Shown here piece by piece: positions 129-5,393 of a stretch of 64,000 bases of DNA. Made by a program: the position numbers and the translations under genes. The stretch's first letter is position 1; each line of letters starts with the position of its first letter. The notes under the pieces were generated by a model, which saw only the letters and a program-made list of their open reading frames with translations, was not told where the DNA came from and made no database searches. This DNA is from Secundilactobacillus similis DSM 23365 = JCM 2765 (lineage in GTDB: Bacteria > Bacillota > Bacilli > Lactobacillales > Lactobacillaceae): positions 1-64,000 of the forward strand of contig NZ_BBAD01000003.1 of the NCBI RefSeq assembly GCF_001311075.1, written 5' to 3'.

Positions 129-1199
129 CTAATGTCGCTTTCGCCGTGCTTGTTGCATCGCCGTTTTCATGGCTTTTTTGCTGCCAAACATTCGGTTGAT
201 CTTGGCTTCTTCACGCGCGCGACCACGAAGAGCGGTGTTTTCAGCTTGCTCGTCGGTGAGTTGCTGGTAGTTCCTTAACCGTTGAGCATCAAGTTGACCA
301 GTGTTAACGGCAGCTTGAACGGCACAACCGGGTTCATGCGTGTGGGTGCAGTTATTGAATTTGCAATTGACGACCAACGCTAAAATATCTTGAAAGGTTG
401 CGTCAACGTCGGCATCTAACAGGCCCAGTTCACGCATACCCGGCGTATCAATCACCAGACTGCCAGTTGGTAGTTGAAAGAGATCGCGACCAGTCGTGGT
501 GTGACGGCCGTGGGCATCACTTTGACGAACGGCTTGGGTGGCTAAGGTCCCATTGCCCAACAATCGGTTGATTAGGGTGCTTTTGCCGACACCCGATGAC
601 CCAATCAAAGCGTAGGTTAGTTGAGGTTTCAATAGTTGTTCAAGGGATCGAAGACCATCAGCCGCAACGGCATTACAGACGACAACGGGAGATGAACCGG
701 CGATGGCGTTAACGGTCAGCAGCTGATTCTCCAAATCACTAGCCTGATCAGCCTTCGTTAAAACAACCGTTGCGAGAGCACCGGATGCATGTGCTAATGA
801 CAAATAACGTTCAAGTCGCCGCAGGTTAAAGTTTTGATCAAGCGCCATACAGATCAGTAACACGTCCACATTGGCTGCAATTAATTGCGCCGAACTAGTG
901 CGACCAGCGGCCTTTCGCATCAACAAGCTTTGGCGTGGCAATAAACGCTCAATCACCGCAGTGTCAGCCACTTCACGAAGCCCGACCCAGTCACCAACAG
1001 TTGGGTAGTCTTCCGCTTCAAATGCCGTATTAAGTAACCGACCGGCAAGGGTTGCCTGAGCGATTTTTTCATCGGCTGCCACCGTCAAGAGCGTTCGGTT
1101 AACGCTTATAACGCGACCGAGGCTTAATGACGAAGTAAGTTGGGCCGCTAATTCTGAGCTGGCACCGAGTTGACTTAAAGTTAATGGTTTAAAATTCAA
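129..1199 (-). CDS. rsgA: Ribosome small-subunit biogenesis GTPase RsgA
   Basis: RsgA (YjeQ/EngC) is a circularly permuted GTPase that checks late maturation of the 30S subunit in the cytoplasm. The 356-aa product has the expected order: an N-terminal OB-fold region (about 30-100), then the G4 motif TKAD (148-151), the P-loop GSSGVGKST (200-208), the G3 motif DTPG (251-254), and a C-terminal zinc knuckle with Cys279, Cys284, His286/288 and Cys292. Length is slightly longer than the usual 290-350 aa. The chosen start is a TTG at 1199, seven bases after a strong GGAGGAG. An upstream small ORF ends with its stop codon overlapping this TTG, which suggests translational coupling. It is transcribed alone and followed by a terminator. 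Family assignment is secure; the regulation is inferred. Confidence 0.95.
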   Translation of the reverse strand: MNFKPLTLSQLGASSELAAQLTSSLSLGRVISVNRTLLTVAADEKIAQATLAGRLLNTAFEAEDYPTVGDWVGLREVADTAVIERLLPRQSLLMRKAAGRTSSAQLIAANVDVLLICMALDQNFNLRRLERYLSLAHASGALATVVLTKADQASDLENQLLTVNAIAGSSPVVVCNAVAADGLRSLEQLLKPQLTYALIGSSGVGKSTLINRLLGNGTLATQAVRQSDAHGRHTTTGRDLFQLPTGSLVIDTPGMRELGLLDADVDATFQDILALVVNCKFNNCTHTHEPGCAVQAAVNTGQLDAQRLRNYQQLTDEQAENTALRGRAREEAKINRMFGSKKAMKTAMQQARRKRH

Positions 1200-1246
1200 T
1201 TTGTTGCTCCTCCTAGAGATAACTGGAGGGTGCTAGTTGTGAGCAT
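1196..1246 (-). CDS. Putative 16-aa leader peptide overlapping rsgA start
   Basis: ATG at 1246 follows AGGAGGGCA and opens a 16-codon frame. Its TGA overlaps the rsgA TTG start (sequence ATTGA). The tight Shine-Dalgarno and the stop/start overlap argue for translation and coupling, but the peptide has no recognisable relatives and could be chance. Confidence 0.4.
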   Translation of the reverse strand: MLTTSTLQLSLGGATN

Positions 1247-1295
1247 TGCCCTCCTGTAACAAGACGGGGTTCACAACAATATCCGAGATTAACAT
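1233..1295 (-). CDS. Putative 20-aa upstream leader peptide
   Basis: ATG at 1295 lies behind AAAGGAAA and opens a 20-codon frame ending in TAG at 1233, inside the next small ORF in another frame. Translating ribosomes here would cross the arms of two competing hairpins (GGAGGG 1225-1230 with CCCTCC 1249-1254; GTTGTGA 1236-1242 with TCACAAC 1271-1277). It is a candidate attenuator component, not a proven gene. Confidence 0.3.
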   Translation of the reverse strand: MLISDIVVNPVLLQEGNAHN

Positions 1296-1414
1296 ACACG
1301 GTTTCCTTTCCGCTCACCGGCTTGGTGCGAGTGAGGCTTAAAAGTAGTGTAACATAACGATAAGAAAATCAACACATTAGTGACATGATTTCACGATATC
1401 GATGGACAAAAAAA

Positions 1415-3424: not shown

Positions 3425-4266
3425 ATGACAAAAGTTTTAGTAACCGCATCGTTCGGTCATATTGGCCAAACCATTATTCCGTTATTGGCAGCCGATGGCG
3501 TTGAGGTCCGGGCAGTTGATCCTGATCCGGCGAATGAATCAGCATTAAAGAAATTGGGTGCCAAGGAAGTCATCGTTGGCGATATTCGCGGGATGAGATT
3601 ATTGATCAGGCAGTTGAAGGCGTCGATAAAATTCTCTTGATTTTACCGGATGCGTTAACGGGCATTGTCCCAATGGCGATGCGAATCATTGCGGCCGCGG
3701 AAAAATACAATGTGAAACACTTCGTCTTCTCATCGTGTCTCAACACCGTTATGGAATTGGTTCAGCACTGGGAAAAATACGAAATCGAAGATGCGCTGAT
3801 GGGATCCACGCTCAATTACACCATCACCAAACCAAGTGGTTACATGGAAGGACATTTTCCAACTGGCCCAGATAGCGTCTTTGAAACCGGTGTCTACACA
3901 ACGTTTATCAAGGTTGACCAACCATCCAATATGATTAGCTTGACGGACATCGCTGCTGCCAATGAAAAAGTATTGTTAAGTGATGACGAGTACTATGCTT
4001 GCTCATTGGACCTCTGTTCAGCTGGCAATAGGACCACGCGGGAATACGCGCAAGAGATTTGTGATAAGACCAATCAAAAACTCCAAATTAACCAGATTCC
4101 AGTTCCTGATTTTCCAACGGTGCACGCCAACGATCAATTTGGTCGGATCGCGGCATATCACGGCAACCATCCTTATAAGGGCAACCCGCTTGATTTTAAC
4201 GCCTTAATGGGCCGGCCAGCAAAGACCTTCAGCGAATACGTTGATGAAGTAATTGCTGGAAAGTAA
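3425..4266 (+). pseudogene. NmrA/SDR-type NAD(P)-binding protein, frameshifted
   Basis: Two reading frames together make one atypical short-chain dehydrogenase of the NmrA/YtfG type, about 280 aa. The N-terminal part (3425 onward) starts MTKVLVTASFGHIGQTI, a Rossmann GxxGxxG-like loop, and leads into GDIR. The second frame resumes with DEIIDQAVEGVDKILLI and runs to 4266 without further breaks. The break is at about 3593 within CGCGGGATGAG; one extra G restores GDIRGDEIIDQAV. These proteins sense or use NAD(P)H or reduce quinones. It follows the MDR dehydrogenase with an AGGAGG site and a terminator after the stop. The break is probably a sequence error (see findings). Confidence 0.8.
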
Positions 4267-4476: not shown

Positions 4477-5393
4477 ATGCGACTAGTTCACTTGATCCAA
4501 AAAATTATCGTGAGTACGGTTGGGGTTACAGCGTTAGTTTCCGGCGGGATTGCAGTCACAGCACACGCACAAGCAACGCCACAGCAAGTTACGGCGCAAC
4601 AACGGACAGTTAAAAATCAGTTGCAGACTTATATCAATCGGGTCACCAAGGATGGGACCGCTAGTGTGGCCTTTTATAATCTGGGTGCATACAGCAATAC
4701 GCCAGCTGGCCGTGCGCAAAGCCGGGCTTTTTATGCTCCTGGTAAGCTAGCGGTTTATAGCAAGAATGCCCATAAGCCTACACTTCGGCTAGTACCTATA
4801 AGCTGTTCGTGGCGGCGAATATCTACTCGCGCATCCACTATCAAAATTTAAGTCGAAGTATCACCAAGACCACGGGTTTTCAGGAAATGATCCTGCATAG
4901 TCGCAACGAATTTGCGGAACACTATCTGCAAACGCATGGTTATGATCGAGTGAACACGTTCAATGCCCATCAGAATTGGTATTCACACGTCTTTGCGACG
5001 GGCAGAGCAGCCCGCACAACGGCCGCGACATTAGTTTCAGTAGTTCGAAAGCTGGATCAGCAACAATATCCGTTCAACGATGCAACCAGCCGTAACCAGT
5101 TATTATCGTTGATGCGGCGACAAGTTTATCGTTCTGGAATTCCCAAGGGGGCAGCGGCCGCAAATAAGGGAAGCAAAGTGGCGGATAAAGTTGGGTGGCT
5201 GTATTCGTTTAATAACGATGCCGGCATTGTGACATTGCCCAATGGCCAGCGCTATGTTCTCGTTGTCATGACGCACGGTCACGGTCAAAGTGGGTTTAGC
5301 GGCTTTCCACGGATTGCGACGATTACTAAGAATGTGCAAAAAATTGTCTATGGTGCATCGACGTCTCAAAAAGTTGCGGCACTGTACCAATGA
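4477..5393 (+). pseudogene. Secreted beta-lactamase-like serine hydrolase, frameshifted
   Basis: The first frame encodes a signal peptide (cleavage after AHA near residue 31) and the start of the mature protein; the second carries the rest to 5393. Restoring one base at about 4788 (ACACTT to ACACCTT) gives SASTYKLFVAANIY, placing an SxxK active-site motif (STYK) where a class A beta-lactamase/DD-peptidase-like enzyme needs it. Further along are SRNE in the position of SDN and a KVG in place of KTG, so substrate range is probably not classical penicillin hydrolysis. Enzymes like this in lactobacilli are extracytoplasmic and presumed to act on peptidoglycan-related substrates. It is monocistronic with a terminator at 5499-5522. 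The frame break cuts exactly before the catalytic serine. Confidence 0.75.

Follow-up and report, generated by a model that had tools for sequence, protein, structure and literature searches.

The second rsgA gene and its upstream region

The window, i.e. the whole stretch of 64,000 nucleotides analysed here, encodes an RsgA-type GTPase close to its start, and the region ahead of this gene holds two short ORFs and a set of complementary segments (Table 1). The product matches PF03193 with an E-value of 3.5e-48 and 164 bits (cutoff 30) and TIGR00157 with 147 bits (cutoff 100), placing it among the RsgA GTPases. The same genome also has an ordinary rsgA with 29% identity to it, and hence we named the window's gene rsgA2. 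The earlier note called the gene simply rsgA; judged by sequence comparison, it is a second RsgA paralog, RsgA2, distinct from the housekeeping one. In a tree of 117 proteins, built with a quick method and containing long branches, three housekeeping copies stand apart (branch 5.0, support 100), and the window's protein groups with the leader-bearing rows, not with the ordinary rsgA orthologs. L121 and L125 join the housekeeping side of this quick tree with support 81.

Table 1. Features of the rsgA2 locus, in coordinates of the window.
Feature	Position	Strand	Description	Basis or remark
rsgA2	129..1199	-	RsgA-type circularly permuted GTPase, 356 aa; TTG start at 1199-1197	Pfam, TIGR00157, paralog search
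ORF2	ATG 1246 to TGA 1196	-	16 codons, MLTTSTLQLSLGGATN; AGGAGG at 1255-1250 ahead	Stop overlaps the rsgA2 TTG
Segment 4 (S4)	1209..1214	-	AGGAGG, rsgA2 Shine-Dalgarno (SD), 9 nt before TTG
Segment 3 (S3)	1225..1230	-	CCCTCC, partner of S2 or of the rsgA2 SD
Leader peptide ORF (ORF1)	1233..1295	-	20 codons, MLISDIVVNPVLLQEGNAHN, ATG 1295 to TAG 1233 (stop included)	Homologous leaders in relatives
Segment 1' (S1')	1236..1242	-	TCACAAC
Segment 2 (S2)	1249..1255	-	AGGAGGG, pairs with S3	Position conserved in relatives
Segment 1 (S1)	1271..1277	-	GTTGTGA, possible partner of S1'
Ile-Val-Val codons	1272..1280	-	ATT GTT GTG	Conserved peptide motif
SD of ORF1	1302..1311	-	GGAAAGGAAA
Possible 5' hairpin	1313..1335	-	CTCAC...GTGAG, ahead of the leader SD	By eye
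Candidate extended -10 promoter element	1346..1354	-	TGTTACACT	By eye; similar TGGTACAAT in relatives

A consensus promoter scan did not list the candidate -10 element at its position. Several relatives have hairpin-like repeats of different sequence at the place of the 5' hairpin. Elsewhere in the window, the overlapping frames 3425-3640 and 3637-4266 (3425-4266, forward strand) look by eye like one interrupted gene, and 4477-4851 and 4809-5393 have a similar look.

The automatic start calls for 41 leader-bearing rsgA2 genes are TTG (17), ATG (13), ATT (5), CTG (4), ATC (1) and GTG (1), where the ATT call of L049 is wrong by eye (TTG) and the remaining four ATT cases are close relatives. ATT, CTG or ATC follows a strong SD in L012-L014, L016, L034, L036, L038, L042 and L048, and in others TTG does; the four ATT-start genes could alternatively begin at an ATG that overlaps the SD. 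The non-TTG starts (ATT, CTG, ATC) possibly reflect an IF3-sensitive initiation. One could then imagine a feedback from ribosome quality or initiation, with immature 30S subunits or low IF3 as the signal and weak start codons making rsgA2 sensitive to it. Non-ATG calls are indeed common in these genes, but GTG or TTG also starts the ordinary rsgA and the four ATT cases have their alternative ATG; we consider such a feedback improbable.

Leader ORFs and pairing segments in the relatives

RsgA2-like proteins are found in 9 of the 15 genomes of the genus (E below 1e-60) and in 97 of the 397 genomes of the family (E 1e-40 or better). We analysed the upstream regions of 100 family loci, a set that includes near-duplicates so that the counts are not independent. 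A translational-type leader precedes 42 of them and L124 is one more with the same ORF, while in G205 (L035, also labelled L140) an insertion, TnpB-like in appearance by eye, separates the leader from rsgA2. In 37 loci (between L052 and L090; e.g. MSVVQ, MSAVC, MSVIR, MLFI and MAVID) the gene is preceded by a tiny ORF of 4-5 codons and in three by a 'KKSIV' leader; the remaining 16 have no acceptable leader (some have other SD-preceded ORFs, e.g. MPIAVK) or run into the end of a contig. Close upstream of the gene, 33 of the 37 tiny-ORF loci and all three KKSIV loci have a terminator-like hairpin with a T-run. Many tiny-ORF loci also show by eye a GTGTACCC...GGGTAC pairing candidate. The leader classes follow the protein tree, the translational class needing 5 changes versus 33.9 on shuffling, with the same quick method and long branches.

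Searching more widely, we detected an RsgA2-like protein in 59 of 295 genomes at the order level, 11 of these 59 belonging to the window's own family, and, with a stricter E of 1e-50, in 133 of 299 at the class level, where the window's genome is among them. An SD-preceded ORF with Ile-Val occurs in 7 of the 20 best-scoring order-level loci outside the family and in 13 of the 29 best-scoring class-level loci; the rest of these loci have no such ORF or a different one. In the plasmid collection, 129 records encode a protein that matches RsgA2 with an E of 1e-40 or better, 68 of them from Rhizobium and 2 from Listeria.

The 20-codon ORF with its own ribosome site, pointed out in the earlier note, is present and recurs ahead of rsgA2 in the relatives. 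By sequence comparison it is a conserved leader peptide, and as in the ermC-type attenuators it is a short, SD-preceded leader ahead of the gene. The leader stop lies 25-69 nt from the rsgA2 start codon, leaving out the mis-called 86 of L049. Ile-Val is encoded in 39 of the 49 translational leaders (42 from the family and 7 from the order) and lacking in 10. The Ile codon is ATT in 39/39, and the Val codons are GTA (22), GTG (15), GTT (1) and GTC (1). Among the distinct peptides, 37 of 47 have Ile-Val versus 8.2 expected from residue shuffling (highest 17 in 2000 rounds), a statistic in which related peptides are not independent. The columns ATTGT and G-AGG are invariant in the aligned group I leaders (19 of the 23 prepared; L037, L041, L046 and L049 were left out). 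Only one of the 37 tiny ORFs (MSAIV) has Ile-Val.

The conserved residues raise the thought of an amino-acid starvation attenuator, in which the leader would sense uncharged Ile or Val tRNA and RsgA2 would answer the supply of branched-chain amino acids, and the invariant ATT for Ile fits this. Classical starvation leaders carry runs of regulatory codons, but each leader here has few of them; moreover, 10 of the 49 have no Ile-Val and several leaders of 4-5 codons have a single Val (MSVNN) or neither residue (MSARN). We regard a starvation sensor as rather unlikely.

The same earlier note proposed a second ORF of 16 codons with AGGAGG ahead and a stop overlapping the TTG. This ORF2 exists in the window, and in the relatives ORF1 is kept but ORF2 is not: a start 3-12 nt after S2 is found only in the window and 2 of the 23 other group I leaders, and the few ORFs in this position among group I leaders encode unrelated peptides. 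The scan misses starts at 2 nt (an ATG is there in L044 and L049), and S2 was misplaced for L043. We rejected ORF2 as a functional cistron.

The pairing anatomy also differs from the one proposed. Both hairpins described there, GGAGGG (1254-1249) with CCCTCC (1230-1225) and GTTGTGA (1277-1271) with TCACAAC (1242-1236), exist, but they share no bases; rather than being mutually exclusive they cross, GGAGGG lying within the loop of the other, and together they would form a pseudoknot. The AGGAGG assigned to ORF2 as its ribosome site is better read as switch segment S2, and the SD under control as that of rsgA2. The proposal missed that CCCTCC (S3) is also complementary to this rsgA2 SD (AGGAGG, 1214-1209). 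What holds is its general idea, a ribosome-based attenuation of an RsgA-type GTPase, which the comparison with relatives supports well; its anatomy does not hold.

S3 is common to the S2:S3 and S3:S4 pairings in 49 of the 49 translational-type leaders, with an overlap of at least 6 nt. By sequence and energy model the two pairings are mutually exclusive and one of them hides the SD of the gene, as in the ermC-type attenuators. A joint S2:S3 and S3:S4 match as good as the real one was found in 0 to 8 of 200 shuffles across the 49 leaders, and in 2/200 for the window. Taken singly the pairings are less telling: in the window S2:S3 was equalled by 10/200 shuffles and S3:S4 by 19/200, and S2:S3 is unremarkable in some leaders, where many of 200 shuffles were as good (L044 195, L037 94 and L040 86). 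The two pairings overlap again in 16 class-level leaders, which were picked for having an ORF and 12 of which have Ile-Val. Joint shuffle matches number 0 to 2 of 200 in 14 of these 16 and are higher in L199 (6/200) and L223 (11/200); for L199, L206 and L223, most shuffles do as well as S2:S3 on its own.

The segment sequences vary while the arrangement is kept. S2, S3 and S4 are GGAGGAC, GTCCTCC and GGAGGAC in close relatives and GGAATCC, GGATTCC and GGAATCC in more distant ones. In L036 the S2 GGAAGAC goes with the S3 GTCTTCC, in L011 the S3 GTTCTCC with the S4 GGAGAAC, in L188 the S2 CGGGGGTATT with the S3 AATGCTCCC and the S4 GGAGC, and in L205 the S3 AGGATTCC with the S4 GGAATCC. We tried covariation as a proof and dropped it as uninformative in the 13 closest leaders, where the observed score was reached by 500/500 shuffles for S2:S3 and 205/500 for S3:S4; an S3 serving two partners would explain this. 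The S1:S1' pairing, which would close the switch in free RNA as the upstream hairpin 1:2 fixes the OFF state in ermC-type attenuators, was matched by 62/300 shuffles in the window, and its equivalent in the relatives shows no covariation. The folding of the window's leader region is no better than that of shuffles (z -0.35). Hence the window sequence alone makes a weak case for a switch; once the relatives are compared, both the leader ORF and the arrangement of three segments are solid.

The leader tends to be found at rsgA2 only. A leader model, R1, gave 28 hits in the 397 genomes, 25 of which are at rsgA2: 19 training sequences and six new ones (G205, G394, G203, G370, G386 and G266). Two of the three weak hits elsewhere (E 2.6e-4, 0.0012 and 0.0073 for the three) are within coding sequence and one is upstream of another gene. 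A leader cassette common to other genes was thus not found with R1 in these genomes, in a scan with strict filters and 9 candidates scored per genome that may miss weak relatives. A further model, R2, returned as its 8 strong hits exactly its 8 training sequences, plus 7 weak hits, one of which (G129) adjoins its rsgA2. The ordinary rsgA has the leader with the triple in 0 of 15 loci (L023 has no start call, and L022 has a short ORF without the triple). Among the 34 window genes of at least 200 aa, three have an upstream ORF; with the thresholds used, the triple is present at rsgA2 only, and one other gene narrowly misses them. Plasmid DNA gave no match to the leader. Rfam gave no match above the gathering score in the window, in 8 loci or, for 13 further loci, at their leaders; a purine riboswitch that it reports in L205 (2625-2726) is away from the leader. 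What this comparison establishes is that the leader ORF exists and is conserved, that the leaders share the arrangement of three segments, and that it is associated with rsgA2.

A folding model of the proposed switch

We modelled the switch by forbidding pairing under the ribosome footprint and comparing the openness of the rsgA2 SD between ribosome positions. For group I, the swing compares a ribosome with its P site at the Ile, Val or next codon with one four or six codons beyond Val. Its mean is 0.37 for the 22 group I leaders modelled and -0.02 for shuffles (standard deviation 0.03, highest of 30 set means 0.04). In the window it is 0.37 (SD openness 0.54 versus 0.17), matched by 0 of 30 shuffles. 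No shuffle of 30 equals it in 14 of the 22 leaders, and 1 to 9 of 30 do in L034, L036, L037, L039, L040, L042, L043 and L046. A much weaker mean of 0.09 versus -0.02 (highest 0.03) came from 16 independent leaders of the order and class levels, in a run that set the OFF positions by S2, unlike the 22-leader run, and left out leaders without Ile-Val. This mean is carried by L188, L193 and L207; L210 is reversed, and 12 of the 16 are matched by at least 2 of 20 shuffles. In group II leaders the SD is most open when the P site lies one to four codons upstream of Val, and hence the stall codon does not seem fixed. The modelling thus supports the switch in the window's own group, group I, and the model predicts that a ribosome on Ile-Val opens the SD.

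Could an unremarkable short ORF have come to stand here by chance, with SD-like repeats pairing because SDs are purine-rich? The weak single-sequence folding statistics would suit this, but the conservation in relatives despite changing sequence, the controls, the swing against shuffles, the R1 hits at rsgA2 and the shared-S3 counts all disfavour it, and we find it highly improbable.

The same models bear on a plain translational coupling, in which a ribosome reaching the end of the leader (or of ORF2) would occupy S3 and thereby free the SD, or would reinitiate at the TTG, with no regulated stall. In many of the class A models the SD does open with a ribosome at the leader end, to 0.96 at most, with lower values of 0.2-0.4 in L015, L034 and L045 and of 0.33-0.37 in the window, where the ORF2 stop does overlap the rsgA2 start. 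But no more than 3 of 24 group I leaders, the window included, have ORF2, the leader stop is 25-69 nt away from the start codon, and coupling alone leaves the Ile-Val motif and the terminator-type loci unexplained. Coupling without a stall seems to us an unlikely account.

We propose that the region 1199-1311 (reverse strand) is probably a leader-peptide translational attenuator of rsgA2 that resembles that of ermC. In the ordinary state, ribosomes translating the 20-codon leader would cover S2, so that S3 would pair with S4, i.e. the rsgA2 SD, and the start would be kept closed. A ribosome held at or near the Ile-Val codons would leave S2 free to pair with S3 and release the rsgA2 start. S2:S3 has an energy of -15.7 versus -10.0 for S3:S4 and the SD is unpaired at 0.35 in the free RNA; S2:S3 being the stronger, the free RNA would be only partly closed. 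Stalling in the leader presumably does occur, and its signal may be a translation inhibitor or a defective early elongation. RsgA2 itself could be an inducible factor that comes to the aid of stalled ribosomes or of 30S subunits, the part that HflXr plays among the HflX proteins.

Known attenuators and the possible role of RsgA2

The ermC and ermA attenuators resemble the proposed switch in having a short leader peptide, alternative hairpins and the release of an SD when a ribosome stalls in the leader; details are given for ermC (PMC6310831), and erm(A) L1 has an aliphatic stall motif, IAVV (PMC12698558). The Ile-Val of the window differs from this IAVV. The erm gene encodes an rRNA methylase whereas the window's gene encodes an RsgA-type GTPase, the closing hairpin is only a candidate in the window, and the drug dependence belongs to the erm side.

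By analogy, the nearest functional precedent for RsgA2 would be HflXr (lmo0762) of Listeria monocytogenes, a homolog of a housekeeping ribosome GTPase that is under a small leader ORF and attenuation. It is induced via the leader ORF and protects against lincomycin and erythromycin (PMC6310831). HflXr resembles the terminator-type rsgA2 loci of the relatives; it differs in being an HflX and not an RsgA, in its RLR motif and in being controlled transcriptionally, whereas the window's version is translational. Drug resistance has been demonstrated for HflXr, while RsgA2 is known here from its sequence. The uORF-dependent transcription and translation attenuation of vmlR and other ARE-ABCF ribosome factors, as described in PMC9226507 and PMC10201436, is similar by description, and their products are ABCF ATPases, unlike RsgA2.

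The name rsgA2 was given to lp_1687 of L. plantarum WCFS1 in a hydroxytyrosol transcriptome (PMC7278804), not necessarily of the window's subfamily, and RsgA, not necessarily the RsgA2 copy, decreased in E. faecium under chloramphenicol according to PMC12441150. In searches of open-licence PMC papers, including passages of PMC6310831, PMC12441150, PMC7278804, PMC6912228 and PMC12698558, we found no rsgA leader described.

Given the proposed leader switch in the window and the similar ones before rsgA2 in many relatives, RsgA2 may serve as an inducible factor for ribosome repair or drug response, and the analogy with HflXr points to a role in translation stress. We tentatively speculate, at somewhat less than even confidence, that an unreported family of leader-peptide attenuators controls the second RsgA in many Bacilli, translationally with mostly Ile-Val leaders and transcriptionally with Val/Ile ORFs of 4-5 codons, that RsgA2 is a dedicated inducible GTPase for 30S rescue or drug protection, and that the short Ile-Val peptides form a new class of arrest peptides. 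Ribosome-assembly GTPases are thought of as housekeeping. If our speculation is true, a second RsgA would stay silent as long as ribosomes do not run into trouble on a tiny leader, making it a stress or drug-response factor like HflXr. The purpose of RsgA2 would then have a directly testable handle, and the Ile-Val leaders would join the small set of known regulatory stalling peptides.
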